Made by a program: the position numbers and the translations under genes
Part shown: positions 13,734 through 56,905 of the stretch, one piece after another
How positions within the stretch are numbered: the first letter of the stretch is position 1
Layout of the letters: the number at the start of each line of letters is the position of its first letter
Notes under the pieces: model-generated
What the model saw: only the letters and a program-made list of their open reading frames with translations
Database searches by the model: none
Told to the model about the DNA's origin: nothing
Source: Hericium rajendrae
Lineage: Eukaryota > Basidiomycota > Agaricomycetes > Russulales > Hericiaceae
Length of the DNA stretch: 64,000 nucleotides
Reading direction: 5' to 3'
Assembly: GCA_033439255.1 (NCBI GenBank)
Contig: CM065880.1
Coordinates: 3,596,001 to 3,660,000 of the forward strand

Positions 13734-14753
13734 TGATGCGCCCTTTAGCACGCCTTGCAACGGCATTGCCCACTCCCCGCCTCCTCGCCCGTCCCGCTTC
13801 ACTTCACCTCAGCTGCACCAAGTCCGCCCACCGCGACGTCGCTCCCCGCACAGGACAAGCGCCCCCACGGGTTCGGGACCAACTGGGTCGGACTAAAGCT
13901 GGTGTCCCGTGGTCCGATGCACCGAACGGGCCGGAGATCAACCGGCCGGACGAGTCAGCGGCACAGGAACAGAAGCGCGCCCAGCGAACCAGCCGGCTCA
14001 ATCAACGCGCCCTCGAACGCCCACACGCCCCCGGATCACGAGCGGTGCCCGCGACAGTGCGCTACTGATGTCATCCCAGCCATTCCAGCTCGACGCGCCC
14101 GCCGTTCCCGACGCACGCCCCGGGCGACGTTGTAAGGCGGCACCTTTGATTCGTCCGTACCACGCGCACGCCCTCTGCCCTGCACGGGCCGAGCCGCAAT
14201 GACTCCACTCGCCAAGGGACCCGGAGCAGGCAGGATCAGGAAGGAATTGGAGATTGGGTCGGTCAGCGGGAGGTTGTCGTAGGAAGTAGCGCCGGGCCGC
14301 CTGAGGCGGCCTTGCCCATTTGTACCGTAGCTATTGACTTAGAGAATGAGAATGGAATCTGCCTTTTTCCCCTCAGAGCTCAGATCTCACAAAGCCCGCC
14401 ATTTGACGTTCTCACCCCAGCCTCTAAGCCCGTCTCAGACGTAGCTCTTCTCACTTTCTCGTGTCGCTCATCGTATTCGTCGTATTCGTCGCCGCGCCGT
14501 TATCTACAAGCCATATCACCTAAGACCCGTGAGTCTTGTCGTATCGTCATCGTCCCTAGCAGAGCCACGTCGGAAGTCGCCCGCGCGCAGCAAGCTCGCC
14601 TCCCGCGGCCTTGCTCCCCTACCCGTAGTACGATCACCCGTCAGCTACATGTCTCGGCGCTCCCCTCTTGAGATACTTGGTCCCCTCGCACCCCCCGGTA
14701 CTCTGTTGGTTTTGGTTTTGGCTGCCGCCTCCATTCCCAGGGTCCACACATCA
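13734..14753 (+). repeat. 5' LTR of gypsy element
   Basis: Starts TGATGCGCCC and ends CCACACATCA. Same length (1020 bp) as the 3' LTR with a few percent divergence. It contains a long GC-rich front half and a T/C-rich second half with repeated TCGTATTCG. Confidence 0.95.
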
Positions 14754-14756
14754 TTT

Positions 14757-14774
14757 TGGAGCCCACCACGAGGG
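14757..14774 (+). other. Primer-binding site of gypsy element
   Basis: TGGAGCCCACCACGAGGG begins three bases after the 5' LTR. It starts with TGG, the complement of a tRNA CCA end, as expected for a minus-strand primer site. The primer tRNA was not identified. Confidence 0.7.
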
Positions 14775-15183
14775 TTCCATACTCAAAATAGAGCCGCGTC
14801 GTACTAGGAGTAGCGCACGGTCGAATCCAGATCGTACCCTCGAACAAGAAGTCCGTGTTGCGACTCAGGACCCTCAGCAAGTTTCCCCCGACCTACCGTC
14901 ACCTTTCCCACCAGTTCCAACTCCCACTAGTCCCCTTACTCCCATCGACGAAGAGTTCGAAATTCCCGAGCTCGAGCGTTCCTTCATCGTTCCTACTCCA
15001 CCCGTATCGCCGACCCCGGCGCCGCGACCCCTTGCCGGTCCCTCTGCTACCGCGGGTCCTAGGACAACGCCGCACCAGGCGACTTTGCCTGCTACCCCCC
15101 GTCCCCCTTCTGCTACTCAACAACACAGCCCGCTAGCCCCTGCACGTTTCCCCTTCCCCAGGCCACAAAGTATCCAACCAGTC

Positions 15184-20132: not shown

Positions 20133-21369
20133 GACTCACGAGTCCACGGGACACCGTGGCGTCACCGCAACCGCCCTCCTGCTCGCGGTCCGTTTCTGGT
20201 GGCCTTTTATGGGCTCGGATGTCGCTTGGTTCGCCCGTTCGTGCCATATTTGCCAAGCGTTCCAGATCCGCAAAGTTCTTATCCCGCCAACGGTTGCGGT
20301 GCCCGCGCCTTTATTTGCGAAAATGTACATGGATACCATGCACCTGCCGAAATCCAACAATATGCAATACCTGGTCCAAGGGCACTGCTCTGTGTCCCAC
20401 TTTCCCGAATGGCGCATGCTGCGCAAAGAACGCAGCGAGCACATTGCTGATTGGATTTACCAAGACATCTTGTGCCGCTGGGGTATGCTCACCGAAATCG
20501 TGTCCGACAACGGCGGCCCGTTCGTTAAAGCCTTGACGCAGCTGGAAAAGAAGTACCACGTCCGGCATATCCGCATCTCGGGCTATAACTCGAGAGCCAA
20601 CGGCATCGCTGAGCGTGCACACTTTGACGTACGCCAAGCCCTGATCAAGGCCGCCGACGGCGTGGAGAAGAATTGGAGCTACTCAGCCCACTCCGTGTTC
20701 TGGTCGGAACGTATCACCATCCACCGGCGCATGGGCTGTTCCCCATACTTCGCGGTAACTGGTACGCACCCCCTGATGCCGCTCGATATCGCTGAAGCCA
20801 CCTACCTGCTACCGCCGCCCGAGGCGATCTTGTCCTCTACCGACCTGATCGCCTCCCACGCTCTTGCCCTGCAGAAGCGTCAAAAGGACCTTCAGCGACT
20901 TCACAGCCGCGTCTACGAGGCCCGCCTCCAGGCAGCACGAAAATTCGAACTGGAACATGCACGCACAATCCGCGACTTTGACTTTCGCCGCGGCAAACTG
21001 GTACTTGTCCGCAATTCCGCGTACAGCACCAGCCATTCCCGGAAGACCAAACTGCGCTACCTAGGCCCGTACCTCGTCCTCGGCCGCAACAAGGGGCATG
21101 CTTACCTCTTGTGTGAGCTCGACGGTACGTTATTCGACCGGCCCACTGCAGCCTACCGCGTTGTCCCGTATTTTGCCCGTACCATCCTCGATCACCCGCC
21201 ATTGGAGGATTTCCTCGATGTCGGCATCGAGCAGTTTGAACGTTTACTCGCCTCCACCGTCACAGACCCAGATGACGAAACCGCCGGCAGCGACCTCGGC
21301 GAATTCGACAGGTCCCGACCAAGTTCGCCCGCGGCGTCCTCTGACCACTCGACTAGCGAGGAGGACTGA
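20053..21369 (+). CDS. pol: Integrase (pol, second part, frame-shifted)
   Basis: The integrase reading frame overlaps the RT-RH frame by 80 nt; genuine homology begins about 20095 with KLVLPP. A zinc-binding HHCC module is present (HESTGHRG...CHICQ), then the core with D in YMDTMHLP, D in VSDNGGPF and E in NGIAERAH. A C-terminal GPY/F-like segment RYLGPYLVLGRNKGH follows. No chromodomain is present. It inserts element cDNA into chromosomes. Relative to the preceding frame there is a one-base shift near 20085-20100; either an inactivating indel or a programmed shift would explain it, and I favour an indel. Confidence 0.85.
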   Translation: MAASGSATRQMRKLVLPPTGRWAALVETHESTGHRGVTATALLLAVRFWWPFMGSDVAWFARSCHICQAFQIRKVLIPPTVAVPAPLFAKMYMDTMHLPKSNNMQYLVQGHCSVSHFPEWRMLRKERSEHIADWIYQDILCRWGMLTEIVSDNGGPFVKALTQLEKKYHVRHIRISGYNSRANGIAERAHFDVRQALIKAADGVEKNWSYSAHSVFWSERITIHRRMGCSPYFAVTGTHPLMPLDIAEATYLLPPPEAILSSTDLIASHALALQKRQKDLQRLHSRVYEARLQAARKFELEHARTIRDFDFRRGKLVLVRNSAYSTSHSRKTKLRYLGPYLVLGRNKGHAYLLCELDGTLFDRPTAAYRVVPYFARTILDHPPLEDFLDVGIEQFERLLASTVTDPDDETAGSDLGEFDRSRPSSPAASSDHSTSEED

Positions 21370-33194: not shown

Positions 33195-36100
33195 ATGCAA
33201 CATAACACCGAGGTAACTTGAAGTGGATTCTGGATATCGATCAAGTCTTATTTCCCTGCAGGACATCGATGTCATGGTTACAACCAACTGTAGGCTTACA
33301 GGCCTTGTTGAACTATACAAGAATGAATGCCGAGGACTGGAATTGACAGAGTATATTCTAGATGAGACTGGCATTGCTGAAGATCTTGCTGCCTTCGAGG
33401 TCTTGTCGGCTGACCTGATACCTCAATCACTTCAGAGTGAGTCGTGTTATTTAAGGCATTACACCCGAGTGACCATAGCACTAATCTCATAATAACAGTC
33501 GATAAAACTGGTAGCTCACTAGATGCAACGCAATGTCGTCACTCCACACGAACTGTTCGAGCACCAGTGCGAGATGACGACCCACGATATGAATTAACGT
33601 CATACCGCAAATCCAGCATGCCGACTGTCACCAATGCAGAGTGGGGCCGTTCCATCCTTCCACGTCCTGCGCCCGCCGGCGGTCCTATCGCTCAATACAA
33701 GCCCGTCGCATGTGAACCACTAATAGCACCCACACGTTCAAATCCACTATCAATTGGTGGTCAGAGCAGTGCTTCTCAGGACGACATGAACCAGCATCAG
33801 CGTTCAGCACCCAGGATCTGCACGCCCAATCATGGCTCACCCACACTCCAGGCTAACAACAAGTCGAGTCTCTCACATCTGAGAAAACAGAAATTTATAT
33901 AGCAGCAAGTCCTGTTATGGACCCTATCAGTGTGCTATAGAGGCTATGAGGCTGAACTATCCAGCTATGGAGAGCTATGAGAGCTATGATAGGCCATATA
34001 GCATGAAGTGTCAAGTACATAGTGTGTCATAGCCTCCATAATCAGCAGTGTCACATATATAGAGCTATGATATTTACTAAGGGATGCTATGATTACTATG
34101 GCTACTACAGTCCTTATGCTAGGTAGTTGAGATATTTCAATCAGAAATTTCTTATATTAAGGTGTAGAGTACTACAGGCTACGAGGCTACGAAATCTAGC
34201 CCTAACTAGTAAATAAAAGCCCCTGTGACAGCACTGTGACATACAGGCTGTCGACGAACGTGAGATGGCGGGCAAGGGTGGCCCCGCACCGTCTGAGGCG
34301 TGCGAGGGCAGGTGCGCGCTGCATGCCCGTGCGCATGTCGTCCGAGACATGCGCGCTGCCTACCTATGCACGCTGTCGGGCGTGCGAGGGATGCGCGCGC
34401 TGATGTGGTCTTGCGCACGCCGCGCACCACCATGTGGGCCGTGCAGCACCGTGCGCGCGCTCGCAGGCCGTGCATCGTTGCGCGCTGCGCGTACGCGCTG
34501 GCATGGCCGTATCTTCGCCGTCCGGGACGTGCGCGCGCAGTCGGGGCCTTTACACGGGCTTGCGTCCCATGTGTCGCCGTGCACGCACTCACCGGACATG
34601 TTCAATCCCACGCGCTCGCGTGAGGGAGTGCGCGTACGCGTTGGGACGCAGTCCGCGTGTGTGGCCGCGAGCATGTTGTCGACGTCGCGGGTGTACTGGT
34701 GTGTAGGGTTGATAATCCGGGGCCATATCCGAACTTGTTGAGGGCGCGTGGGGTTGCTTTGAGCACGTGGAGTTGCTATGGGCGAGTGAGGGACGCCGAC
34801 GGGCGGGCAAACGGCGTATAGTCGCGCCTCGTTGCCACGGCAACGAGGTGTGACAGCGACGGCGGCGTTGACGATATCGGGGAAATGGCCATGGCGGACT
34901 CGTGAGTGGAGCGTACGTGCGCAGTCGGGGCCACCATGGCCACGTCACGGGCGTGCATGGCCATGCCCTTGCACGCGGGAGCTGAGTGCATGGCTGTGCA
35001 CGCGCAGCTACGTGTCGTGGCCGCGAGCGCGTCGCTGACGATGCGGAGGTGTTGGTGCACGGCGGTGGTGAGTCCGCTTGGACCTGTTTGAGGGTGCGCA
35101 GGGAGTCGTTGAAGGGATGCGGAGGTCGCGGGAGGCCGGACGAAAGACGTGTCGCGCCCCGTTGCCACGGCAACGAGGCACGACAACGCGGGCGCGGACA
35201 ACGTTGTCGGAAGGGCGGGGCCGCAGCGGGCTAGTGGACGTGGACGCGGGGTGTCGAAGGGGATGGGGGCGTGGTACGCGCGGTTGCAAGAACGAGAGCA
35301 CGAGTATCGCTCGGTGAACGAGCGATACTCGCTGTGTTAGTATGAGAAACGAATGATAGAGTGCTTTTTACTTACCCGTTAGCCTCAACCCATCAAATAA
35401 TCCCCTCCCGAGTGTTGAGGATGCCGCGTGTATGGAGAGAGCAGCGAAGAAGGGGAAGATGGAGGGGGAGATAGAGGGAGTATTGCAAGCACAAGTCGCG
35501 CGACGACTTTCAGCCACAACAGCCAGTACTGTCGCGTCTGGCGGTTTCGACTCTAACAAATCAAATAAAATCGATATAATTCACAAAAAAGACAAGAAGA
35601 TACAGCACATCAATTGAGATACAATGAATGAGCTATCTGTGTAGCTACTGTACAACACACTCGGAGGTATCGAAATCCACTTAGTGGAATCTAACGGCCA
35701 GCCTCTGGCACGATGCCCGGCAATGCCCGGCCCGGCCTCGCCAAGGTACATTTGACGCTCCGATCGCCACGTCTATATAAGACATGCACGACGCGCTTCC
35801 TCTCTCTCTTCCCTACCACTACCATCTCCTGTATTTCGTCGCTCTCTCTTCTCCTGCTTCGACTTTCTGATGTTCGGTAAGTTGTTATGCTGTTGCTATA
35901 TTGTTTCAATGTTTACTAACCTTACTGTTCTTTGTAGACTCTTACATTTTCGCTTTTATTATCTTAAGTAAGTCTTATGTTTTTTTCTATATCTGTATCT
36001 TCTATACTAATTTGTTGACTTTGTCTTTAGATTATTTTCGCTTTTTCTTATCTATGAAGTAAGTCTTATCTTATCTTTTATCTATCTTTCACTTTTAAGT

Positions 36101-39100
36101 TTTATCTTATCTTATCTTTGAATTTTGTCTTATCTTATCATTGTATATTTTATTATCTTATTCTGGAGTGTTAGTCTTAATAGTGTATCATAGATGTGTA
36201 GTGATACTTGTAGCTTTGTATTAAATGTATTGTAATTTAATATTGTTTATAATATAATGCTTTCAAATTTTCGAGGTTTTGAATGTTTTAGATGCAACAA
36301 GTCTGAAATTTATAATATATTTTTATATTTGAATAAATTTTTAGCACTGTGAAGTAGCATACAGAACAGAGGTGATATAGAGTAGATAGCAGCCTTACTA
36401 GCTAGATATGATATGATAACAGAGATATATCACATAGCTGACATAGCTGACATAGCTATGATAGCCATTATATGTAATAGCAGCTATGATAGCTATGATA
36501 GCTTGTACTCTATGCTATGGTAGCTATGATAGATATGATAGCTCTATATAGATTACCTCACTACTATGGAGTAGCTATGTAGAAAAGAGGACTCCTATGG
36601 CCCTATCAGAGCTATGTAGACTATATAGTGCCATATATCACTGGTCCTTTTCTCAGATGCAGTCCTGGGCAATGCACCCACATTGTACGGTGCCGGGTCT
36701 AGAGTGCATTCTGGACGTGCTATCATCCCACTCCCTGAACGATCTAGCCATCAGGCTAAAGATCGTCTGCATGTCCCCAACAACCTATTCAGGGCCCTCA
36801 TTCTTCCCAATGCATCATTCCTTGGAGGGTCTCGGGCTAGTTCTGATGGCTCGAACAGTCCAGCGCAGCGTCCTGCACGTACCGTCCGAGCACCGGTGCA
36901 AGACGATGATCCACGATATGAATTAACGTCGTATCGCAAGTCCACCTTGCCGACCGTCAGCAATGAGGAGTGGGGCCATTCCATCCTTCCTCTTACTGCA
37001 GCTACTGCAGGTCCTGTTGCTTCAAGCACCCCATTGACAGCATCCACCCTTTCCACATTGTCCATTCAGGAACATGGTGCTGATCGTAAGGATCTGAGAC
37101 ACTCATCCATCAAGGATCACATCCGAAGAACCTATCAGAATATGACTTCCAGTCAGTCTGGCAGCAAGGGAGTCTATGATAATGACCAAGACATTGAGTC
37201 AGAGGATGAGGATGATCAAGGCATTCAGATAAATCATATACAGGAACTAGAAGTGCAAAGTGCTGCCAGTGAAATGGAGCTAAAGGAGAGTCAATCTGGT
37301 CCTGGGAGAAATGAGATAGGTGCAATCTGATGCATTCATCTCTGTTTTATCTTCAATTCTGACCTTATTCTTATATTCAGTAGAGGATGGAGAGATTGTG
37401 GAGGACACAGATGCAGATGATGCCAATGATGAATATGAAGAGGGTCAGGTCTCTGAATCTGATTTTGCCTTAGAGGATGGTGCAGGCTGTGCTTCTGAGT
37501 TGGATGATGTGCCATTGCCTCCTCAAAGTGAAGCAGCTAGTGAGAGTGGCTTTAGTGAAGTAAGAGAGGATGACTTACAAGTAAGTCTTTATGCTACTTA
37601 AAATGTATTTTATTAAATGGACATCCTTGTAGAATCCAGTAACATCTGAGGTATTGTGCTCTAACCATTTTATCACTTGATATCATGATTCTGAATACTA
37701 TTACAGATTTTGTCAAGCCACTCTGATGCAAACATGGTATGTAACAATAAATTTTGAGTGAATGGATTATCATATTAAAAGAATTTCTAGTATACAGGTA
37801 TCTCATCAAATCATGTTCTCTATATATAAAGCATCAATTTGACTTTGTATTTTAGGATTCAAATGGGGTCAAGAAGATGATGGATCATGGTACCCCACTA
37901 AAATATTTGCTGACTTTTCTGATTGGTAAGTCATAGATGTTATATATTTGTACTTCATCTTATATAAAAACAATAATAACATAGGGAGGTTGCTTCAGAG
38001 CCAGCTGATGAGACCCAGCCATTAACTAACAAGAGAAAGAGAAGAGGTCAACAATCATCTGCTAGATTTAAGGCCAAGCGTAATGCTCGTGCTGCCAATC
38101 GGCCTGGAGATGATAGGCATAATATTCACTATGACAAGAGGCTATTCTCAAGAAGCATGAAGTATAGTCAGATAGTGAAGCTGACTAATTATGATATTAT
38201 CCAAGATGGTATGGTCAGCAACACAGGATGGATGGGCAAGCCACCTCCTGATTGGGCTAGGATCAAGATTAGAGAACTGTACTCCACCTCTGATCCAGAA
38301 AAGGCATCCTTCTTTATGAAGATCCTAGGAACATTTCTTCCTCTTCCTTATATTCAGAGATCAAAGTAAGTATATAAAAATGCTCATTCATCATTTATCT
38401 CACTTTGCAATGTAGAGAAAGAACAGCTCTATGGTTGTTAGATCAAGATAATCGGCTCTTTGCTTATAGGGGATTTTCTGCTCCCTGGCTGCAAGAATCT
38501 GCAGCTGAATTATGGGACTTGGTGAACAAGCTGCTTGAAAAAGACTTGAATGATCCTATTCTCAGAAAGAAATGTGAAGTTGGATCTCGAGGAGCTCATT
38601 TTCCCTGTATAATTGGTCACTACAGGCAGAGTAGTCCAGTCAGATTTTACTGTTTGACTATATTTCTCATAGCTAATTAAATTTTTTTAAGGTGCCTCGC
38701 ATGACAGCCTGGCATACCAAGCATCTTGACCAGGTCACTGATTTCTTAAGTCACCCATTGATCAAAAAACTCAAGTGAGCTTTTATATTGTATATTTTAT
38801 TACTTGAATATGTAACAGCTTCTATAGTGAATGGATATCAAGAGTAGTAGCCATTATCTTTCCAGGCATAGCCAAGAGGTTCCAAAGATCAGCAAAATGG
38901 CACAAGGAGCAGTACAATATTGACCCCTTTTTTGGTCTATTTTGGAACTGGTGCATCAACGGTATCTTTCCTGGTCAAGGGAGAATCCATGCCATTCCAC
39001 ATGCAGATGCAGTGAATCCTATTGCAGTTTGTGTTCTTATGGCTTATGTTTGTCCTAATTGTGAGTAATATTGTGATATCAAAAGATTGATCTCATTTTA

Positions 39101-39567
39101 TTTTTAAAGCTAAATTTGATCATACTAAAAGGACCTGGTTGGTTTTGTGGGAGGCAGGAGTTATAATTGAGGTTCCTCCTTGGGTCCCCATTGCATATCC
39201 TTCCTCAATGTTTTTTCATTTTAATATCGATATTCATGGTAAGCATATATATATATATATATATATATTCTTGCTTATATTATATTATTGACTTTTCACA
39301 TTAGAGATAGAATGGATCACAACAGATCAAAATGTGGATCACCCTACTCCACAGAACTCTCATTCATTTACACATGGTGATGATGAGGGAAGAGGTTCAA
39401 TGGTCTGGTTCAATGAGGCCACCATGTACCAGGCCTCTGAGACTGGTTATGGAACACTGAATGCTGCTGAAGCTGCAGGAAAATCACATGTGTCAGATGC
39501 TAAAATGACAGCTAAAGAAGCTTTTGCTCAGTATAGAAACTTTGTTTACAAGCCCAAAGATATCTGA
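33195..39567 (+). CDS. 2OG-Fe(II) dioxygenase-like (TET/JBP-like) protein, interrupted by a TIR element
   Basis: Exons by eye: 33195-33212, 33262-33436, 33499-33875, [element 33876-36659 plus duplicated CA], 36662-37319, 37381-37580, 37633-37650, 37707-37736, 37791-37797, 37856-37925, 37985-38365, 38416-38638, 38692-38774, 38828-39060, 39110-39238 and 39305-39567. Without the insertion the frame joins to 954 aa. The N-terminal half is Ser/Asp-rich with a duplicated RTVRAPV-DDDPRYELTSYRKS segment. A basic KRKRRGQQ tract follows. The C-terminal domain has GRIHAIPHADAVN (H-x-D at about 805-807), TWLVLWEAGVIIEVPP and a second His in MFFHFNID (about 861), compatible with a double-stranded beta-helix iron dioxygenase. 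Mushroom genomes carry large transposon-linked families of such proteins. Catalysis on 5-methylcytosine is possible but unproven, and the 2-oxoglutarate-binding Arg is not obvious. Confidence 0.6.
33934..34115. repeat. Left subterminal AGCTATGA array, TIR copy 1
   Basis: Irregular tandem words GAGCTATGA, GGCTATGAGG, AGCTATGATAGG close to the left end. The words are partly palindromic (AGCT, TAGCTA). A similar array is found at each end of both copies. Confidence 0.7.
34831..34844. promoter_or_regulatory. X-box-like palindrome GTTGCCACGGCAAC
   Basis: A 14-bp inverted repeat within CCTCGTTGCCACGGCAACGAGG; it matches the RFX-family X-box consensus GTTGCC-AT-GGCAAC. Further sites are at 35161-35174 and, in the other copy, 43670-43683. 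Confidence 0.5.
35161..35174. promoter_or_regulatory. X-box-like palindrome GTTGCCACGGCAAC, second site
   Basis: Identical 14-mer to 34831-34844, 330 bp downstream in the GC-rich core of TIR copy 1, again flanked by CG...CGAGG. Confidence 0.5.
35301..35331. other. Perfect 13-bp hairpin next to conserved intron, TIR copy 1
   Basis: CGAGTATCGCTCG, 5-nt loop, CGAGCGATACTCG. On the minus strand the stem starts immediately after the acceptor of a 44-nt intron (35375-35332). The matching hairpin in copy 2 differs by a compensatory pair. Confidence 0.75.
35332..35375 (-). other. 44-nt intron-like segment, TIR copy 1
   Basis: On the minus strand GTAAGT...ATACTAACACAG, with canonical donor, branch site and acceptor. 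Copy 2 has a 44-nt counterpart at 44069-44026 with TACTAAT and CAAG. Confidence 0.65.
35774..35781 (+). promoter_or_regulatory. TATATAAG core promoter, TIR copy 1
   Basis: TATATAAG followed by a CT-rich initiator region (CTTCCTCTCTCTCTTCCC). The same arrangement, with CGGCAA(T/C)GCCCGGC upstream, exists in copy 2 at 44461. Confidence 0.6.
35870..36075 (+). other. T-rich segment with serial short exon-like islands, TIR copy 1
   Basis: Islands of about 30 and 28 nt containing TTTTCGCTTTT are each bounded by a TAG acceptor and a GTAAGT donor; spacers of about 55-65 nt contain CTAAT/CTAAC branch-like sites. The pattern is shared with copy 2 (44650-44830). No coding frame runs through the joined islands. 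Confidence 0.5.
36370..36620. repeat. Right subterminal AGCTATGATAGC array, TIR copy 1
   Basis: Repeated AGCTATGATAGC, CATAGCTGA and GATAGCTATGATA words, AT-rich, adjacent to the right end. Many words are self-complementary. Confidence 0.7.
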
Positions 39568-40260
39568 GTAACTAATAATAGTAAGTAATATCATTCTTCT
39601 TAGAAGCTACATTTTAGACTGATACAATATACAAAAGATAGTATCTGACATTCTGTATGATTTATTCTCTAGCACTTTAGTGATATTGTCTTAGACTGAT
39701 AAATTGAGATATGAGATATGTTATCCAACAAAAAAACTCCTCGCTTTTTTAATTTTATTGATTTGAGTTTGAGGGCTCTGTTTATAGGCTGTTTTCAGAT
39801 ACAGATTTATTTTATAGATAACACATGTAAAATCAGTGTACACTTCAAAAGTTAGATACAAATTAGATATAAGTCAGATTAGATATCTCAGATTAGACAC
39901 AAGTCAGGTCAGATAAATCTCAGAATAGAGACACATCAGATCACACATTGCTTGTTGCTTCATGGTAAAATAGCAGACTGAAGGACTCCTATCAATTATC
40001 TTGTCTAATTATGTTAAGGTTTCATAGGCTTGATAGGAGGGCTACGCTGTTATTTTCTGAAACATTACTATGTAAGATAAAGTCACCACACATGAAAATT
40101 GGCATAAGTCATATAATATAAGTCATATAAGATATAGCAAGCATAGAGAGCATAAAAGGTATAGAGAGCATACAGGGCATAGAGAGCATAAAGGGCATAA
40201 AAGGCATAAAAACATATAATAGAGAGTAAAAAGCATATAACAATTATAGGAGTGATATCA
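39568..40260. other. AT-rich convergent intergenic region with minisatellite
   Basis: Separates the 3' ends of the two convergent genes. It contains an AT-rich 3' flank, TTAGACTGATA-type repeats, and from about 40139 to 40215 a short tandem array of GCATAGAGAGCATAAAGG-like units. No gene is supported. An AT dinucleotide run is also present in the last-but-one intron of the left gene (39247-39268). Confidence 0.6.
40139..40215. repeat. Minisatellite of GCATAGAGAGCATAAAGG-type units
   Basis: Four to five imperfect units built from AGAGAGCATA and GGCATAAA blocks, downstream of the minus-strand gene. Confidence 0.7.
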
Positions 40261-40363
40261 AAAGATTTCAAAGATCTTCATAGGAATCAGTTCCTGTAAC
40301 AAGAGGTTCAATGAGAACTCCATGAAACCAAATGTCAAATGTAGTTGCCAGTGCATCAGTATC

Positions 40364-43300
40364 CTAGTTTAGAATATTGCGAAGGGCATCATCAACAGTC
40401 ACAGTAGCCTCTCGTGTGCATCCTGCAATATGAATAGCACTAGGCTATCATAAAATGTGAGAAAGAGACTTGAGATAAAACATTGACAGAAAATCATACC
40501 TCTAAAGGGCTGTTTTCAGCATCATAATTCGGTTGAGCAGGCAGATGCTTGAAAATAAACTGAAGACAAAATGTTACAGAAGTAAAGTCAGATTTAACTG
40601 AGACCTACCTTCAGATGCCATTCACCTAAGGGTAAGAGATCACTACCAGTCATCATGCGCAGTAGTAGCTGAGATCGAAGAACAGAAGCATTAGTTTCTC
40701 CTGGTCTGCCTGGGAGATTCCTAATAAGAAAGTCTGGGCTGGGAAGCAAGCCCTCATATGCATTATTTCCTGTAGGATCTGGTGGATGACCTGATCCCTT
40801 GAGATAGCGAATCAGGTGGCTCTGAAAGAAGCCCTCATACAAGTCACACCATGGAGCATCCCCCAGATCTACTTGATCATTGTTGTGCAGATCCTCTGCG
40901 CTGTTGTCCATCTGCAAAGGTTGAAGAAGAAGGAGTGGAAACACGAGTCGATCGATAACTTGCTTAGGATCCTCCACCTCACGACGATACATTGCTCCCA
41001 ACATCAAAGACGAGGAAGGAATTACAGAGGCCAGTGCCTATTCAGAGCAAAGATCGTCAAACAAAAGCAAGGGATAGATGAGCGAAATACAAACACCAAG
41101 GACCGTCAATCCAGGACGAAGCTCGATATCAAAACCGGCCTTGAAGGCCAGCAAGTCTGGATGCTGATATCCATACGGATGGCCAAGCAGAACTTGACTC
41201 AACAGCATGTGCTCCACACCAGAAAGCTCTGATGCATCTGGTGCATTGTTGGACCAACGATCAATCTGGATGGGCTGTTATATTATACATGAGTTGGACA
41301 CGTCACAAAGAGTGAACGAGCACTCACTTTAAGTCCGACTTCTCCAAGTAATGCGATGACAGACTGACGGTGAGATTCCTGCAGACTGTTGAGCGATGAG
41401 GTCTTTGGCCAGTCCACCCAGGCGTTGAGAATATCAGCTTGGCCTTGGTCAAGATAATGAATGAAAGCATGATCATCAGATGTCAGAGGCCCAGGCGATC
41501 CATCAATGCATGCCTGGATAAGAAATGGTGACCAGACATTTGGGGCCGCTTCCAGCCACGACATATGGATCAGCGCAAAATAGCCACAGATGCGCATTTG
41601 TTGAAGATGGTCGGGGGCTGGTGGCTGCATGCCCGGAGAGAATAGCAGAACACGATATCCTCCGACGTCGTTCCAATAGACGTCGGAGCTGCTCAACATT
41701 ATAATAGCCTGTCGGATGACAGATATCTCTGGGCTGATGCCCACACCTTCTCCACTGGCAAATTGGATGGGTTGTTAATTCTAAATGAAAGCCAGAGAAG
41801 TGAACAACTTACACGTAAATGGAACGGGTTCCTCGCGGACCCAGCAAAGCCTGCAAAGGGACAAGATTACATCTTGTAGCTTGGATGGCATCCAATGAGA
41901 AGTCAACCAGGCACTTGTCTTGGAGATGCGTCAGAAGAGCCGATGCAAATTCAGACTCCTCAGGTTGCTCTGTAAGGAAGTGCCAGCCAACAAGGAAGAT
42001 AAGGGCTTGGGCAGCGATCTTTGCATCTTTGGCCTGTAGTTCGAGGACTGGGTGATTTCGATCACGATAGCCATGTGTAATGGTAGAAAGCCACCTTCGG
42101 AGATCTCGTGCTGGAGGAGGCACAAAAGTAGGACGTTTAGGAGGAGGAGGAGGAGGAGGTGGTAACGACTTGACTATGACCAGTGCAGTTGGAGCGTTCT
42201 AGCCAAAGTGTGTTAGAACGTAGACCAATGACGCGATTTGCATGATGTGGAAAGCTGACCTGAATGGATGATGGAGTACCAAGTCGTCGTCGAGTATTTC
42301 TAGTTGAGGGACCATCGAAGTCTGAAGAATGACTATCCTCCATGCTTGTGGTCTGAAATTGAATGGCGAACGAGTAAGGTATGATTCTGCCTAGATATGA
42401 ACGAACTACATACCTGAAGAGATGCATCTGAAAAATCCCAAATTTATATAGCCATCAGCCACAATTATCTAAGCTATGAGAAGCTATATATCTAACTTAT
42501 ATAGATATATAGGTCTATAGTAGCTATATAGACTATATAGCCATCTATGCCATCTATGTAGGTCTATATAGCTAGTTAGTGCAGCTATGGAAGCTATAGA
42601 CATGTCTCTACTTGCTATAAAGCCTATGTAGCCTACATCCACTATATCCACTATATCACCTTGTAAGTGTAAGCTATATGCTATGACATTTATGAGATAC
42701 ACAGCAACTATACACACTATTCAGAGTACACACATAATATAAGTCACACTCAATGTAGTCAAATTCACTTATATTTTTTGTCATAACTAGGTACAGAAGT
42801 TAAAGAAAATATTATAACTATGTCGAGCGCCGGCGCACGCGCTGGTGCCGTTAAGCGCCAGCGCCCGTCGAGTACGCCAGCGCCTGTTGAGCGCGCAGGC
42901 GCAGAAGGCGCGCGAATGGCCGTACATGGGCGCGAAGGCACATGGCACGCGTGGACGGGGCGCGGTGTGCAAGCACGGGGATAGGACGCGTGGGCGGGCG
43001 TGGCACGCGAGCACGGGGATAGACACGTGGGCGCATATGGCGCGCACGAGTGCGGGATGTTGGGCACGCGTGCAGGGCATTGAGCTTGGTGTGGGGAGGC
43101 ATTAAGCACACATCCATGCGCGTGGGTCGTGGCGCGCACGGGCAAGACGTTGGGCGCGCGGGCGGGGCTTGGAGCGTGCGGGCGGAGTCGTGGGGCGCGG
43201 ATGCGCGGCCGCGGGGCACGCGTGCTGGGAGACGCGCGTGTGCGCGGCGGATGCAGAAGACGCGGGGCATTGGGCGCGGATTCCGGACATCGCGCGCACG

Positions 43301-46300
43301 TTGCGTGAGACGGGGTCGTGCGGGAGCATACGCGTCGGCGGACGGGCATCCGTGCGGATGCGAGGTCATGCGCTGGCGTCCGTGCACGCGCATGGACGTT
43401 GAGCTGACGTGCGGGGCCTTGCACACGCGCACGGGACGTTATGCGCGTGGGCGGGGCGTTGCGCAGGCGGCGTGGGTGCGGAGCGCGAGCGCGAGGCGTT
43501 GCGCGCACATACGAGACGTGCGGCACGCGAACGTGGGGCCTTGGGGGCGCAGGGTTTGCGTGCGCCCGCAGGGTCTTGCATGTTGCGGGCGTGGTATGGG
43601 GCATCAGGCGGAGCATGGGGGGAATGCGCAGGGCCGTGGGCCGTGCGCACAAACGACGTCCCGAGTCCCGTTGCCGTGGCAACGGGACTTTACGGCGCGC
43701 GGACGTCGGCAGCACGGGCGGTGACGAGGCCCATGCGCGCGTCGCTGACAGCACGCGTAGGACGTGGCATGCGCGCGAAAGCCGGCACCGGGTGCGGGTG
43801 ACGGGGTGGTTTGGGCGCGGGGCATTCGGGTTGTGCGTGCGGGCATTCGGGTTGTGCGCGCGGGCAGCAGGGGGCGTAGGCGGCGTCGTTGGGAGCGCGG
43901 AGGGAGCGCGGAGGGAGTGCCTGACGGCGAAGATGGCGATGGGGACGTGGAACGGACGATGAGGGGCGATGCGAGGCGTGGAAAGTCGAAAAATGAGAGT
44001 GTCGCTCGAGAACGAGCGACACTCTCTTGATTAGTACGAAAAAGTAATGAGAGGGCTTTTTCTACTTACCTGAAGCCCTCTTCATCCATCGCAATCCACC
44101 CTAGCCGAGTCGATAATCGAGAAGTGCGAAAGAAAAGGGGAGAGGGAGAGGAAACACGGAGGAGTAGGAGAGAGTAAGGGAGAGTGGGTGAGAAAGACGA
44201 AGTCTCGACGCGTCAACTCGGTGCTTCGGCCACCGAATGCGCGAAGAGACACAACAAATCAAATTAAATAGCTAGAAATACGAGAAAAAAAAGCAAACTA
44301 TGTATCATGTATCTCAGTACAATAAATGAGCTACATTGTTGACAAGCATACGGTATACTACTGGACAGCAGGGTCAAGATATCGAAATCTAGTACTTAGT
44401 CTCTGACGCGGCGCTCGGCAACGCCCGGCACTGACGATTCTCGGCTTCGCCCGAGATTCGTATATAAGGCTCGCGCGACGCGCCTTGCCTCTTGCTCTTT
44501 ATCCCCACCATGTCCTGCCACGTCGACGCTTCGTCGTCGTCGCTTGCTTGCTCGTCGTCATTACTTGCTTGCTCGTCATCATCACTTGCTCACTTGTCAT
44601 CATTGCTCCTTCTATTGTCGTCGTTTGTTGCTCGTTGCCTTTGATATCTATCAAGGTAAGCCTTATTCTCTGTCTTTCTTATGTCTTATGCTAATGTCTT
44701 CAGATTGTCTTGTAGGTTTTCGCTTTTTTGTTAGTCTGGTAAGCTTTTATATATTATCTTGTTATCTTCTAATACTAATATCTTCTTTTTTCTCTAGTAA
44801 ATTTCGCTTTTTTGTGATAATAGTAAGTCTTGTAGTGTTTCATTTTAATCTTGACTAATGTTTATGTTGTCTTAGAATTTTTAAATATTTAGTATGTTGT
44901 AGTATATAATGTTGTAGTATATTATCATGTTGTAATTAGTCAATAAAATATTTTGCTATTCTTTATCTTTTGTGTGATCTTTGTGAATGATTTACTTTAT
45001 CAATATGTAGATATTTGTAGAATTATACTAAGTCTAGTATAACTATAAATTTCAATTAAAACATTGTAGTCTATTAAAAATATGTAGAGTACTCAGCTAA
45101 TTGTAATCACCAGAGCATCCATGACATCTGTAGCAAATATATTCTGTATAATGTATATAGTGAATATATTCTACATAGCTACTCTCATAGCTTCATAGCT
45201 ATGTCTTGTAGCTCTATAGCTATCATAGCACTCTATAGCTATCCTAAGTAGCTCTATAGCACTCTATAGATGACCCCCTTCTATGGCCATCTATAGAATA
45301 GGTGGCATAGCTATGGCCCTATGACATTTATATAATCTATATAGAGCTCTATAGCCATGTGGATTTTCTCAGATGTGCTGAACGGGGGCGGGTGGCTGGT
45401 GTAACTGAACCACTGGCCTGAGGCTCAGTAGTGCGTAGAGGCATCTAATATATTAGCGATGCATCATGAGTTAGAAATTAGAAATGCAAAAAGCAAGCCT
45501 CGAACAAAAGACGCACCAGGTTAGCACATTGCGGAGTGGAAGATGAGCTCGAAAGGTGTGTTGACAATGAAACAGGCAGATTGTACTGCTGGAGAAGAGC
45601 AGCAGGTTCGATCAACTGTGAGAGAAAATGAGAACATGACGATCACAAAAAAGAAATCCAAGGTTAGCTGACCTCTGGATCGGAGCGAGCAGGACTGGGC
45701 ATATCATTATCGGACCATGAATAATGAGCCTGCTGCACTGGACTGCGAGGCATGGTATTTTCAGGCAAACTGTCCTGGTCGGAGACACCAGTGCAATTAG
45801 CTCGACAGTCGATGTCCACCTCAAGGGTAGACCTAAGAACATGATAGAGTCGAGCTGGAAAACAAAGATGACATAGAAGCTCATCTGCATAATCCATCCA
45901 CCCAAGCGCAGGACGGTACAGCGCGCCTGCCAAATTTTTCCATCTGGGAGCTGTTCATCCTGTAGAGTCAGAACAAGATAAATATATAATCAAGGTAGAT
46001 CGCACCGATGTAAATAGCATGCCGAAGAGGTTTAATCAAGTCGATATGATTGACGTTGAACTTTTTACCAGCCACAATTTTGATGAGATCATGCACAGTT
46101 ATGGCTGGAGAGAGAACCTCCGTGCAAGGCTGGATAGCACGGTGTGTGGTGTTGGACGCTTTGCGACCAAGGGTCAAAATCATCCAAGGTAGGGAGGAAG
46201 GTGTGACTGCTCCTGCGGAGAAAGAAGGAGTTGACTCCAAAGGACCAGAGTCCAATGTGAAAAAATGACTCTGCAAATGCGAGAGAATTTGCTGATGCAG

Positions 46301-51862: not shown

Positions 51863-54800
51863 ATGCCGCTGACCGATCTCAAGCTCCACGGCTCTTCTGA
51901 ATCAGCCTCAAGCAGGGTACGACAGGGAAGAGAGAGTCATACAGAGAATGCAAAGCATGTCGCGATCGGCGTACTTACAACGGTTCTCAAGGCGACGAAG
52001 GAAGCGTCGCCTGCATTTCCACCACTACAGGGAGTTGCGGGAGGTATACTAGCGATAAAGGACGTGCTAGAGGTGCGTAGCGTCCATCTGGGTCAGCTCT
52101 CGCATACGTCTTGACCGTCACTCTCAGAAAGTATCCGCGAATGCGGACGACATCAATGCCCTCACCGACTACATTAAGAAGCTAAACTCGATGGTTATGA
52201 AGTCGATACCTGATGATTACAAGTCCTGTCCTCAAGCCTTACAAACGAGGATTGAGGATCTGTGCAGGTCCGTATTTCAATATTGCGCGACTTGGAGTGG
52301 GCACGGATCTCACCGATCCCCAAAGAGATGTTGATGCCATATCGAAGGACGTCGTAAATCTGAGGTCTCAAAATAGAATCACCCGCGTATTTACCACCAA
52401 AGCCACCTCCGAGAAAATCCAAGAGCATTTACGTGCGCTGATGTGGGCCATTCAGAAATTCATCGTGAGTCGAGACAGAGTTTGTGCTATTCTGTATCCC
52501 TGACACGCTGTGTCCAGGTCGGAGGAACCATCGAAATCGAGATGGCTGTCGATGTCAGTATCTCTGCATTTGACCGCTTTCCGCCTTTGAACTCTCTTTA
52601 GGAACTACATGCCACTGTACAAGACGGGTTTGGACACATGGACACGCGGTTTGACGGTCTCGGTCAGCAAGTCCAAAATCTGGAGAGGAGGGCTGAGGTA
52701 TGCATTTGCGCACATCCAACCATGCCATCTCACTTAAATATTCTTTGGACTCAATTAGTCAGGAGGTAGCTGCACTTATCGCCTTCTCCGCATTTTTGCT
52801 GACTCACTTTATAAATGAAGCAGATGTCCCCGTCTATCGATATGCGGCGTCAGCGCGTTTTGATTCTGTTAGTAATCGTGTCATCTGCGAGGAGAAGACG
52901 AGGCAGGAGGTTTTGGCCACGGTCTACCACTGGATCAAGCCCGGAGATTCCCGTCTCACAGACTTTCCCCCCGATCTCATCCAGCAGCCCACCGAGAGCC
53001 GGGTGCTTTGGTTAGAGGGCCAAGCTGGCATGGGAAAGTCGACGATTGCTCAGACCACCGCGGAATGGTGCGATTCTGTTGACTATCTAGGCGCGAGTTT
53101 CTTCTGCGCCAGGGACTCAGATCAGTGCAGCAATGTTGAACTCGTATTTCCCACCATCGCATATCAGCTTTGCCGTCACTTCGACAGCTTCAAAGAACGG
53201 GTCGCTGAGGTTCTGCGCGCAGACCCGGATGTCCAGTGGTCGTCTGTTTCGCGCCAGCTCCAGAAACTGATCGCCGACCCGCTGCTAGCCGTCAAATCCA
53301 GCGGTGCCTTCCCTACTTGTGCGGTGATCATTGACGCACTCGACGAATGCAAGGATGATCAGGCTACATCTGTGATTCTCAAAGCGCTTGCACATCACAT
53401 TCGTGACCTCGATCCGCTCAAATTCTTCATAACCAGCCGTCCGGTTCATCACATTACTGGCGGTTTTCGCATCACTGGGCTCAAAGACAATAAACAGCAC
53501 CTCGCCATGAACACCATACCTCCAGAGATCACGAGCAGGGACATCAGGCTGTACCTGGAGAAACAAATAGAAAATGTGGCCCGCTGCTACGATATTCATG
53601 GCCCGTGGCCCACGGACGGTGAAATGGCGGCGCTCGTTTGTCAGGCGAACGGGCTCTTTATTTTCGCGGCGACAGCTGTCAGATTCATCCAGGACCCTCG
53701 CCATCTTAGCAGTCCCAAGGCCCAATTGAGGAAGCTTTTGAGCTCTCAGTCTCCGACATCTCCGACATCGCCATACCATTCTCTCGATGCTTTATACACT
53801 CAGGTTCTGCGTAGTGCATTCCCCGAAATAGACAAGGCATTAAAGCCTACGCTGAAGATGGTCCTAGGATCCATTGTGCTTGTTCGCGATCCGCTCCCGT
53901 CGACCACGCTCGATGCTTTGCTGGGCCTGGAGCATGATACTGTTCGGAGCATCTTACTTCAAATACAATCTCTGGTCATTGTCCCTGAACACGACAACGA
54001 TACTATCCGCCTCATCCACCCGTCCTTTCATGACTTTTTGACAGATGGATCACGATGTAAGGATCCGAATTTTGTCGTCAATCCCGGGATACAGAGCAGT
54101 GTTCTGGCGCAGCATTGTCTTCGTATTCTACAGCATCTTCGGAGAGACATCTGCAAGATCGGAGACCCGTCAAAACTAAACAGCGAGGTGACCAACTTGG
54201 ATGGCCGAGTGGCCAAGCACATCCCGCTTCATCTCCAGTACGCATGCAAGCATTGGATGTTTCACATTGCCAATGCAGAAATTAGTGAGGCCATCTACGA
54301 GCTCCTCAAAGTCTTTGTTGCCGAGCATCTGTTACACTGGTTGGAGGCCCTCAGTCTGCTCGGTGATATTAAGGTCGCAATCGAAGGGCTACCCATTGTT
54401 CGAAAAACGTTACAAGTATGTATAAAGCTTTTTGACAGGTGTTATGAGAATGCTGATGTTATCATGGCATCAGGGCCTTCCTCTTCCTGCATCTAACATC
54501 CTTAGTCTACTATACGACTGCGAGCGGATCGCGAGGCAATTCTACCCTTGCCTCAGTGTGTCATGCTTGCAGGTCTACTTTGGCATCATTCCCTTCTGCC
54601 CCACCAACATTGGCCTCCGCAAGCAGTACGAGCATGAGGTAGTCTCAATGCACAGTTTATGCATGAGGGTGAACTGACAGAGGCTGCATGCACAGATATC
54701 AAATGTAGCTACACTGCTCATTGGTTCTCAGCACACATGGAGCCCTTGCATTAGGATTATGGAAGGCCACTCTGATAAAGTACGGGCTGTTGCATTTTCA

Positions 54801-56905
54801 CCCAATGGGGAGCAGATAGTCTCCTGCTCAGATGATCATACCATCCGTCTGTGGGATGTGAAGACAGGTTCACACCTGCAAACTCTCAGTGGCCATTCCA
54901 GCCGGGTCTATGGTGTGGCATTCTGTCCAAGTGGGTGCAAAATTGTATCACGCTCTGCATCAGAAATCATCATATGGGATTCTGTGACTGGAGGCCTTTT
55001 GGACCTGTGCAGTACAGAGAACCAAGTAAATTCTGGATGGATAGTGCCTGCTATAGCATGGTCTCCTAAAGGACAATTTGTTGGCTCTGGCTTTGGCTTT
55101 GGCAATGGCATCATAATCTGGGATGTGACAAGAGAAATGCGTCAATTTATGCAGCCACTGTTCTTGTTTGAAGATCATTCTCAGGTATCATCCATCATCT
55201 TCTCTCATGATGATTCACTTGTTATATCATGCTATATAAATGGCAAGTGTATAGTGTGGCACCTCCAGAATGTGTCCCTCACTTGGAGCTTCTCATATAA
55301 GGATCCAGCATATTCAGTTGCTCTGTCACATGATGACAAAACTGTTGCAGTTGGCTATAGGAATGGAGTTATTGCACTGTGGGACATGGAACATCAGAGG
55401 TGCATTCACAAGTTGCAAGGTCATAAGGGCATAATCTGGTCCATGGATTTCTTGAAAGATGATCAGATTTTGGTATCTGGGTCAATGGACAATATGATCT
55501 GTCTATGGTCTGTCAAGAATGGTGCTCAGCTTGTTGTATTAAAAGGACACTCAGATCAGGTTTGTTATCATTTTCTGACTTACTTGTTGACACATTTTTT
55601 CAATGCTAAGTCTATCATTGTCAGGTCTGCTCTATACAATTCTCTTCAGATGGCAACCTCATATGCTCTGGTGGCTCAGACCAAACTGTTCGCATTTGGG
55701 AGTGGAAAGATATGATTTCAGCCACATGCCAGAGTCATTTGAATGCCTCATTGATCCCTTGGACCAGCTTTAGACATCCACATGATCACTTCAATATTGG
55801 TAAAATAAAAAATTACCCACCTTTCTCAGTTCAGATTGAACTATATTGGACATATTTCAGCTCAAGTGATCATGATTCTAGTGATCTGTTTATGGTGGCA
55901 TTGTCAGGTGACGGTACTATCCTAGCCACTAGCTCTATGAATGGGACAATCTGTCTATGGGATACATCTACTGGCACTCAAATTCAGACACTGTCTGGCC
56001 ACAGGAGCCTTGTCAGCTTTATTGCATTCTCACCTAGCAGAAAGCAGCTCTCATCAGCAGGGTATGGAGACCACACAGTTCGGGTCTGGAATGTGAAGAC
56101 AGGCCAATGTGATCAAGTGTTTGAGGGCCACACCAAATCAGTCCAGATGGTTACCTATGCTTATGATGAACATAGGCTTGTGTCATGTTCCAGAGATGGA
56201 AGCATTCATCTTTGGGATACTTTGGCAAAAGAAAAAGTGGTGCATTCTTCAGGCAAGATCCTGTATCACAATGTTGCAGAGGAAATCTCCACTATATCTG
56301 TCTCACCAAACAAACAACATGTCCTCTTTGGAACTTGGACATATATCAGGCTTCTTGACATGACAATGGGAGCTGTGTTGTGGAAGTGCCAGTCAGCAGT
56401 GGACAGGATCATAGCATTGTCATTCTCAAGTGATGGAAGCCGTATTTTATCTGGAGATGAGGAGGGCTGCATTTGTCTGTGGGACACAGCCCTGGCATTG
56501 TCACATAGAGACAAGGATGCTTTGCTGGAAGAATTCCATGCACCCCACACATTTGATCACATATCATTCTCTGCAGACCAGAAAAGTGTTGTCTCTGATA
56601 CGAGCTTTCATCTCATCAATGCTAGAGAGCACTGGCCACACTGTGTCTCTGTCAAGGACCATCAAGGATCATTGACACCTCTGCCAGTCTATCTTCTTTT
56701 TGCTGACTGGATTTGGTGTGCAGGCCCTGAAGGTGAGAAGCGGATATGTTGGATTCCAGCAGAATATCGAACCAGGCATTTGCGAACATTTCCCCTACAG
56801 ACTCAAATGGCTGTCTTCCAGAGTAAGATTGCATTTAAGACAGATAGCGGATGCACAGTCTTGGTTGATCTCTCGAATTGCACCAATGTTACTGAGCTAC
56901 TATAG
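51863..56905 (+). CDS. NACHT-WD40 (NLR-like) receptor, complete
   Basis: Nine exons: 51863-52072, 52128-52267, 52326-52464, 52518-52553, 52602-52697, 52763-54415, 54474-54638, 54681-55559 and 55625-56905; total 1532 aa, frames continuous. The N-terminal about 220 residues form the helical fungal NLR N-terminal region (VLKATKEASPAFPPLQGVAGGILAIKDVLE-like helices). NACHT follows: P-loop LEGQAGMGKST (about 53010-53045), Walker B CAVIIDALDECKDD (about 53320-53360), sensor-type FFITSRP. A winged-helix/linker region precedes 13 or so WD40 blades. Such STAND proteins oligomerise on ligand binding and act in fungal allorecognition and immunity in the cytosol. The third exon join (52268-52325) uses a weak donor, so an indel there is the alternative. 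The WD40 half is strikingly poor in CpG compared with its NACHT half and with the paralogue at 1-2517. Confidence 0.88.

Follow-up and report, generated by a model that had tools for sequence, protein, structure and literature searches.

Probable non-autonomous Plavaka-type DNA transposons with a conserved gene-like interior and CpG-poor ends in Hericium rajendrae

DNA transposons that are non-autonomous tend to be regarded as passive, no more than two ends with filler between them. Those of the CACTA type usually arise as deletion derivatives, and MITEs combine TIRs and high copy number with a length of a few hundred bases and no transposase. The closest described systems are the fungal Plavaka DNA transposons (PlavakaA and PlavakaB, CMCT clade), for which the accessible passages of Kojima 2025 give 2-bp duplications and CA..TG termini (PMC12730594). 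According to these passages, PlavakaB has 5'-CATCA..TGATG-3' termini with a 2-3-bp duplication and PlavakaA has 5'-TGT..ACA-3' termini; Plavaka members bearing TET/JBP exist, and fungal transposons with TET/JBP oxidases are thought to use these for escaping methylation (PMC12730594). For soybean TgmR* (CACTA/EnSpm), the accessible part of the report proposes that methylation of the element affects transposase binding to subterminal repeats (PMC4219821).

The window analysed here is a 64,000-nucleotide stretch of H. rajendrae contig CM065880.1 (positions 3,596,001 to 3,660,000). An initial annotation had described in it two copies of a mobile TIR element without visible transposase, and the ends, the coordinates, AATTTATATAGC and the AGCTAT arrays were all recovered in both copies (Table 1); the four exact CATCTGARAA ends within the window all belong to them. 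The empty sites proposed there as a check were found for both copies on a paralogous, duplicated segment of contig C6 in the same genome, which lacks both elements, confirming insertion at both sites. Each empty site is resolved to the base: the joined 700-bp flanks align full length to C6:2293059-2293758 for copy 1 (647/700 identical) and to C6:2298768-2299464 for copy 2 (653/700 identical), with the dinucleotide present once in each junction, CTCTCA/GTCC and GAGATG/CTGA, respectively. The flanks of copy 2 read TG/TG, corresponding to CA/CA on the opposite strand. The flanking CA described earlier is a real 2-bp duplication, but CA is neither a target motif nor a terminal one, as the sequence varies among copies, others having AA, TT, TA, GA, TG, TC, CT, AT or GT.

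Table 1. Features of the two elements and of the interrupted host frame, in window positions
Feature	Positions	Strand	Basis
Copy 1, 2784 bp, non-autonomous, probably Plavaka-type	33876..36659	+	ends CATCTGAGAAAA/TTTTCTCAGATG; C6 empty site
Copy 2, 2951 bp, subfamily different from copy 1	42425..45375	+	ends; C6 empty site
Copy 1 left TSD, 2 bp (CA)	33874..33875	.	single CA in C6 empty site
Copy 1 right TSD, 2 bp (CA)	36660..36661	.	single CA in C6 empty site
Copy 2 left TSD, 2 bp (TG)	42423..42424	.	flank comparison; C6 empty site
Copy 2 right TSD, 2 bp (TG)	45376..45377	.	flank comparison; C6 empty site
Copy 1 left terminal region, TIR + AGCTAT/ATAGC array	33876..34195	.	22-element alignment; CpG O/E 0.17
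Copy 1 right terminal region, AGCTAT/ATAGC array + TIR	36230..36659	.	22-element alignment; CpG O/E 0.09
Copy 2 left terminal region, no CpG	42425..42744	.	CpG O/E 0.00
Copy 2 right terminal region, no CpG	44946..45375	.	CpG O/E 0.00
Copy 1 GC-rich CpG-dense core	34206..35300	-	GC 0.67, CpG O/E 1.29
Copy 2 GC-rich CpG-dense core	42755..43994	-	GC 0.69, CpG O/E 1.43
Copy 1 palindrome enclosing GTTGCCACGGCAAC, resembling an RFX X-box	34825..34850	.	sequence read
Copy 1 second GTTGCCACGGCAAC palindrome	35161..35174	.	sequence read
Copy 2 palindrome enclosing GTTGCCGTGGCAAC	43664..43689	.	sequence read
Copy 1 hairpin, CGAGTATCGCTCG-loop-CGAGCGATACTCG	35301..35331	-	family conservation; compensatory changes
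Copy 2 hairpin, GAGAGTGTCGCTCG-loop-CGAGCGACACTCTC, A-T to G-C compensatory variant	43995..44026	-	hairpin scoring
Copy 1 predicted 44-nt intron (GTAAGT ... CTAACACAG), abuts hairpin	35332..35375	-	5' splice signal + branch-point match
Copy 2 predicted intron, abuts hairpin	44027..44069	-	splice signals
Copy 1 TATA-like box	35774..35780	+	motif match at set distance from hairpin
Copy 2 TATA-like box	44461..44467	+	motif match at set distance from hairpin
Predicted micro-exon with TTTTCGCTTTT	35938..35967	+	alignment; loose motif + GTRAG
Predicted micro-exon with TTTTCGCTTTTT	36031..36058	+	alignment; motif counts
Host open frame left of copy 1	33441..33875	+	367-aa frame after removal of element + one CA
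Host open frame right of copy 1	36662..37330	+	367-aa joined frame; C6 piece

Both copies had been placed inside coding exons whose frames were perfectly restored by excision. For copy 1 this is solid: the frame joined after removal of the element and one CA is also open across the 700-bp C6 piece. Around the copy 2 junction 120 aa are open, but in a test piece of 650 bases the correct phase yields 108 aa compared to 99-109 in the other phases; the frame test does not discriminate there, and the boundary of copy 2 therefore rests on the empty site. A search for homologues of the host gene, with a query containing one extra residue, found none at E 0.001.

Genome-wide, CATCTGARAA occurs 1408 times, compared to 133 occurrences of the reversed control. 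Among 31 paired elements sampled, 29 have identical 2-bp flanks (the exceptions being L038 and L044), and 3-bp flank identity was flagged in none of the 31. Element length is 2.66-3.3 kb in 29/31, L023 (4.4 kb) and L025 being longer; the subfamilies are ~65-75% alike where alignable, and the interior spacing stays fixed. The surplus of ends corresponds to ~640 elements, which at 2.9 kb each make up roughly 4% of the genome. Copy 1 has three relatives that are 98-99% identical (C6:68708, C6:111378 and C2:3912010), indicating that the family moved recently, whereas the closest relatives of copy 2 among the 31 are L013 (76.8%) and L016 (77.8%), over ~2.1-2.2 kb aligned. Judged from these comparisons, the family is very large, with some hundreds of copies.

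The initial annotation took the element to be apparently undescribed, a placement corrected by its ends and duplication length, which group it with Plavaka. Elements of 12.4 kb and 9 kb that carry Plavaka transposase in the same genome end in near-identical CATCTG(G/A)AAAAA. Three 12.4-kb elements are bounded by CATCTGGAAAAA, with 2-bp duplications CA/CA, TG/TG and TC/TC, and all three match PF18759 (Plavaka transposase). The one copy profiled matches Plavaka transposase (E 7.5e-86), Ulp1 peptidase (E 6.1e-6) and, in one open frame, Tet_JBP at E 1.3e-7, with 31.5 bits, below the curated cut-off of 34.9. The transposase match of the 9-kb element has E 3.8e-49; its 2-bp flanks are unmatched (AG vs CT), as are those (AG vs GC) of L061, a 3.55-kb hairpin element with a CATCTGGAAAAA end. 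The window elements themselves carry no transposase and are connected to it through relatives only; the AGCTAT subfamily is paired with this transposase because the end motif and the duplication length match. On this basis, they are very probably non-autonomous Plavaka-type (CACTA/EnSpm-related) elements. The presence of Plavaka and the style of the introns suit a mushroom-forming fungus.

An autonomous relative with the same ends, anticipated earlier, was thus found as far as the near-identical termini go, but an autonomous Plavaka with AGCTAT arrays was not found in the genome, where Plavaka profile scoring covered 123/166 candidates and 132 Plavaka matches are listed. None of the matches listed on C1 falls in the longer stretches between CATCTGARAA ends on that contig (e.g. 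284685-291103). The subterminal arrays are AGCTAT/ATAGC in the window family and GTAG/CTAC in the 9-kb Plavaka and at the 12.4-kb right end. L061 closely resembles this right end, matching at 255/300 aligned positions and, in a separate comparison, at 193 of the last 200; the right 250 bp of copy 1 are only 43% like it beyond the common tip, and direct alignment of window-type with L061-type elements finds the hairpin-intron module alone in common. Candidate partners were rejected: L012 (8 kb) holds an apparent nested TIR element by eye, and five of its ORFs failed to match Pfam at E 0.1 or better; L025 contains by eye a nested LTR-like segment in which one frame resembles gag; and the apparent CATCTGARAA end of L029 near a Plavaka is a chance match inside the transposase frame.

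The annotated promoter, intron and hairpin signals are conserved in the family as a predicted TATA-like box, splice signals and a hairpin. Some form of the hairpin is present in 31/31 elements (best score 19-26 out of a possible 26; shuffles, 15-18), fully paired in 20/31 and with at least one unpaired position in 11/31, and the exact stem occurs at 107 places genome-wide vs 0 for the control. The stem shows compensatory changes, its extra pair types being no more than in shuffles. A 5' splice signal with a branch-point match, marking a predicted intron of 41-49 nt, is found in 25/31 elements vs 3/1550 shuffles, the predicted spacing from branch point to splice site being unusually short at ~5 nt. 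A TATA-like match lies 420-475 bp from the hairpin in 30/31 (L021 being the exception) vs 13/620 shuffles, and the loose micro-exon motif with GTRAG occurs in 28/31 vs 11/620; the stricter pattern has 76 genome-wide matches vs 0 for the control. With peptide conservation in mind, the micro-exon reading frames were seen by eye to differ among subfamilies. Rfam gave no match at gathering score in the window; below threshold, there were only weak miRNA matches in the AGCTAT array, while copy 2 had none as far as E 0.5. The suggested RNA gene gains support from a conserved structure, from which a transcript might be made, and this internal unit bears out the earlier view that the element is not a passive short MITE. 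A protein-coding core was rejected: Pfam holds nothing that matches the minus-strand frame of 421 aa in copy 2, only 3/16 core indels between copy 1 and L035 are multiples of three, and in 13 pairs indels are mostly not multiples of three, these forming the largest class only in L014/L015 and L019/L022.

The interior could be a relic, left by internal deletion of an autonomous Plavaka, in which promoter, introns and hairpin are leftover regulation of the transposase gene with no present role. Non-autonomous elements of the CACTA type usually originate in this way, a TATA-like box and splice signals would suit a 5' leader, and an AGCTAT-type autonomous partner might carry the module; moreover, one palindrome of the 12.4-kb Plavaka recurs at other places, including the CATCTGGAAAAA element L061. 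However, hairpin and TTTTCGCTTTT are missing from those portions of two types of autonomous Plavaka that were examined, where the best hairpin score is 16, at shuffle level. The hairpin also occurs under two end types, CATCTGARAA and CATCTGGAAAAA: 11/50 listed hairpins sit inward of a CATCTGGAAAAA end at a distance of 1.7-2.3 kb, against an expectation of 0.12. Together with the fixed spacing across divergent subfamilies and the compensatory changes, this makes the relic unlikely, and a functional interior is slightly favored.

Alternatively, hairpin and palindromes may work not as RNA structure but as DNA bound by a dimeric protein, either one encoded by the transposon or an RFX-like factor of the host. 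The second palindrome has no loop, and its strict core, GTTGCC-NN-GGCAAC, present in 15/31 elements, is one we take to resemble the RFX X-box; palindromes may covary at the DNA level as well, and the 12.4-kb Plavaka has a different zero-loop palindrome between its genes. By contrast, the hairpin retains a loop of 2-8 bases and lies 41-49 nt from the 5' splice signal in 27/31 elements, and in L009 the X-box core is altered on both sides with the palindrome kept, so that we regard DNA sites as an improbable explanation.

CpG is sharply partitioned within the elements. The ends contain 34 CpG vs 659 expected, with 0-3 per element, whereas core CpG O/E is at least 0.95 in 8/9 elements checked (L009, 0.58). 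Core variation affects 75/1132 CpG sites vs 30/3436 non-CpG sites, and 69/75 CpG changes are transitions; by this signature, the core appears to mutate as methylated DNA would. CpG-free ends might accordingly be read as decay by methylation (CpG to TpG/CpA) beside a younger or protected core, CpG transitions being the main recent change there. Yet the adjoining core retains its CpG despite mutating at these sites, TpG and CpA in the ends are near expectation (0.62-1.26, four elements checked), and the ends of near-identical young copies are also almost CpG-free. Decay is thus a doubtful account of the ends. Methylation-proof ends as an adaptation are proposed tentatively; against the proposed explanation, non-CpG variation in young copies is equally fast in ends (0.0086 and 0.0095) and core (0.0087).

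We propose that these are non-autonomous Plavaka elements with a gene-like interior, mobilized in trans, a reading to which we assign a probability of about 0.8. A Plavaka transposase from another element would recognize the CATCTG(A/G)AAA ends together with the TAGC-type arrays next to them, cut out the unit of 2.7-3.3 kb and reintegrate it, duplicating 2 bp of the target. One arm would contain a predicted ~45-nt intron ending at the conserved hairpin, followed by the CpG-dense GC-rich core, and the opposite arm the TATA-like box and predicted spliced micro-exons; both may make non-coding spliced RNAs. The CpG-free ends would shield transposase binding from cytosine methylation, taken instead by the core, where the TET/JBP-like domain of the 12.4-kb partner-type element could oxidize it. 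A wider and quite speculative reading is a satellite lineage free of any one autonomous partner, in which the module (promoter, mini-intron, hairpin RNA and CpG-dense core) acquired different Plavaka ends on separate occasions and follows the active transposase; its RNA or methylation-drawing core would serve the element, e.g. by attracting the partner TET/JBP oxidase or keeping the locus open, as the ends stay methylation-proof. A reading of both sequences as long introns fixed in the host genes, as their exon-like surroundings and a GTATGT 5' splice-like site 11 nt from copy 2 might suggest, is refuted by the C6 empty sites with exact single-dinucleotide junctions and opposed by the many duplication-flanked copies elsewhere.

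Hundreds of copies thus seem to retain a gene-like interior, with a hairpin recurring under two end kinds and CpG divided between binding sites and core. Such a system would offer a natural test of the interplay between a target that is methylated, binding sites free of methylation and the oxidase of a partner.

No account of such elements was found among the matches listed in a literature with few subscription papers within reach. The family resembles MITEs in its TIRs, high copy number and lack of transposase, but differs in its length and conserved internal gene-like unit, and is not classed with them. The GC-rich core may resemble an untranslated exon of maize Spm that is likewise GC-rich. 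Subterminal repeat arrays are shared with CACTA/EnSpm, whereas CACTA/EnSpm proper has CAC(TA) ends and a 3-bp duplication in place of CATCTG ends and 2 bp; compared to TgmR*, as described in the accessible part of that report, the window arrays are almost without CpG (PMC4219821). At L030, the genome also has a boundary that, judged by eye and at one end, is consistent with PlavakaB (CATCAGC...). The CATCTG of the window is close to the CATCA of PlavakaB, but the termini CATCTG..CAGATG differ, and the elements are therefore not filed as PlavakaB; nor do they have the 5'-TGT..ACA-3' termini of PlavakaA. The 2-bp duplication of Plavaka is found in 29/31 non-autonomous and 3/3 12.4-kb elements, though not in the 9-kb Plavaka or L061. 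Compared to the Plavaka described in the accessible passages, the window elements, without transposase, add a hairpin-intron unit and a CpG-dense core (PMC12730594).

Joining the flanks of each copy after removal of one dinucleotide and searching them against the host genome (46.77 Mb, 19 contigs) revealed a segmental paralog on contig C6, which covers both 700-bp joined flanks end to end with 647/700 and 653/700 identical positions. As this paralog has neither element and a single dinucleotide (one CA or one TG) at each junction, both copies are insertions. The initial annotation, which had delimited two terminal inverted repeat elements with CATCTGARAA ends, is thus confirmed by the empty sites and by the exact ends, only four of which occur in the window, all belonging to the two copies. 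The window region and C6 at about 2293000-2299500 form a segmental duplication, of which the two 700-bp pieces aligned are ~92-93% identical. The simplest order places both insertions after this duplication, which with its preserved empty sites provides a good reference for insertion dating. The proposed location within coding exons holds for copy 1, where element removal leaves a host frame of 367 residues that is open also through the 700-bp C6 piece, but it is less certain for copy 2 because the frame test there is non-discriminating.

Features of the window (C3:3596001-3660000; window coordinates) and related elements on other contigs
Feature	Location	Remarks
Element copy 1	33876-36659	CATCTGARAA end and its reverse complement
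Element copy 2	42425-45375	CATCTGARAA end and its reverse complement
LTR-retrotransposon-like frames	14629-21369	Aspartyl protease, reverse transcriptase/RNase H and integrase zinc-binding matches, some sub-cut-off
NACHT (NLR-like) frame, then WD40-repeat frames	52697-56905	
Further WD40 frame	1219-2517	Near window start
12.4-kb Plavaka elements, CATCTG ends	C2:25000-37414; C2:3857472-3869885; C4:1119862-1132277	Pieces L031, L052, L062

The pattern CATCTGARAA occurs 1408 times (701+707) genome-wide, compared to 133 for the reversed control. The family is clustered at the start of C1, since 70 of the first 100 ends listed (C1 up to 4.2 Mb) fall within C1:1-740000. The window and 39 fetched stretches (20 picked for ends, 3 for Plavaka and 16 for likeness to copy 1) were screened for paired ends, and 31 pairs were used: 15 end-picked, none Plavaka-picked, 14 copy-1-like and two from the window, a biased sample in which related copies are not independent. 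Stretches L012 (right end beyond the stretch), L020, L026-L031, L036 and L039 yielded no pair, and several stretches also keep unpaired ends. Identical 2-bp flanks bound 29 of the 31 elements (exceptions L038 and L044); the predicted duplication thus stands in its length, but its sequence varies and is not constantly CA. Copy 1 has three relatives of 98-99% identity at other sites with other duplications. Element length is 2.66-3.3 kb, except for L023 (4.4 kb) and L025 (5.3 kb). By eye, unrelated mobile elements are nested in the GC-rich core of L025 (~2870-5340) and L012 (~3880-8860), and the core seems to be a tolerated insertion site.

Further search with the pattern CATCTGGAAAAA gave 127 occurrences against 11 in the control, bounding three 12.4-kb elements that all have Plavaka matches, are 100% identical after rounding over the ~7.5 kb compared, and have 2-bp flanks of CA/CA, TG/TG and TC/TC. 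The copy that was read encodes a Plavaka transposase, an Ulp1-type peptidase and, slightly below cut-off, a Tet_JBP-like domain. Two copies of a 9-kb Plavaka, one on C1 and one on C11, with ends CATCTGGAAAAA and CATCTGAAAAA and CTACAGTAG-type arrays, lack matching 2-bp flanks; as their outer flanks are identical, they represent one insertion in a duplicated segment. Because the 12.4-kb and 9-kb elements carry CATCTG ends, we assign these ends to a Plavaka lineage. Judged by its ends and duplication length, the window family very probably (roughly nine in ten) comprises non-autonomous Plavaka members; no Plavaka with AGCTAT arrays was found among the elements examined in the genome. This family identity is solid, and a function of the interior would be testable.

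When 22 elements were aligned, with seven near-duplicates and the two long elements among the 31 set aside, conservation was seen at the ends (~300 bp and ~350 bp) and in the central-right part, and the GC-rich core proved poorly conserved. A form of the minus-strand hairpin is present in all 31, with best scores of 19-26 of 26 versus 15-18 in one shuffle per element, and is fully paired in 20. Among 25 distinct sequences, including two from L061, an element with CATCTGGAAAAA ends, 95.7% of cells pair (shuffles, 90.2%) and 17 double changes occur (shuffles, 4.6); neither value is attained in 2000 shuffles, which take no account of relatedness. Extra pair types show no excess (455/2000 shuffles attain the observed value). 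A minus-strand 5' splice signal lies 41-49 nt ahead of the hairpin in 27/31 elements, together with a branch-point match in 25/31 (3/1550 shuffles), and the minus-strand piece 35250-35480 of copy 1 has a folding z of -3.9. A TATA-like box 420-475 bp from the hairpin is found in 30/31 elements (13/620 shuffles), and a loose plus-strand TTTCGCTTT motif with GTRAG in 28/31 (11/620 shuffles), the strict form of which occurs 76 times versus none in the control. Rfam search gave nothing at gathering score and only weak, chance-level matches below threshold.

A genome-wide search located the exact-stem hairpin at 107 places and its control at none; among 50 listed on C1-C6, 11 sit 1.7-2.3 kb inside a CATCTGGAAAAA end (0.12 expected at random). 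In L061, a central promoter-like region is flanked by two hairpin-intron units in divergent orientation, and a ~1.1-kb GC-rich degenerate repeat follows each unit. Its right end matches the 12.4-kb Plavaka at 255/300 positions (193/200 over the final 200 bases), and its 2-bp flanks do not match each other. As L061 shares the hairpin and its splice signals with window-type elements and is otherwise unalignable to them, this small module is found under two end types; none of the pieces retrieved from the 12.4-kb and 9-kb Plavaka elements contains it. The 12.4-kb Plavaka carries a zero-loop palindrome, GGGAAACGTTTGGCTGCAGCCAAACGTTTCCC, in an intergenic position (L031 6739-6770), and a close form lies mid-L061 (~1651-1690).

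The 31 elements hold 34 CpG in their terminal regions (320 bases at the start and 430 at the finish) versus 659 expected. In nine elements checked, the core has a GC content of 0.57-0.72 and a CpG observed/expected ratio of 0.58-1.43 (at least 0.95 in eight). Among 12 elements in four groups of near-identical copies, 75/1132 core CpG sites vary, 69 of them by transitions, versus 30/3436 non-CpG core sites, and non-CpG sites vary at equal rates in ends and core. This pattern is consistent with the expected trace of cytosine methylation and deamination. In four elements checked, the ends show barely elevated TpG and CpA. The ends of the 12.4-kb Plavaka are less CpG-depleted (11 versus 13.8 and 4 versus 11.2 expected); those of the 9-kb Plavaka hold 5 versus 12.2 and 3 versus 17.9.

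In another Plavaka, L030, the alignment boundary at one end adjoins CATCAGC as judged by eye, in line with the PlavakaB signature of Kojima 2025 (PMC12730594). According to that study, TET-bearing Plavaka are all PlavakaB, and two Agaricales species are named for them within Agaricomycotina. Related literature includes PMC9674265, PMC12810828, PMC8955403 and PMC8290104. We infer that the TET/JBP domain of the partner may have a role in an interplay with methylation. Since methylation was proposed (PMC4219821) to impede transposase at the subterminal repeats of soybean TgmR*, the comparison suggests that the ends of the present elements may be methylation-proof.
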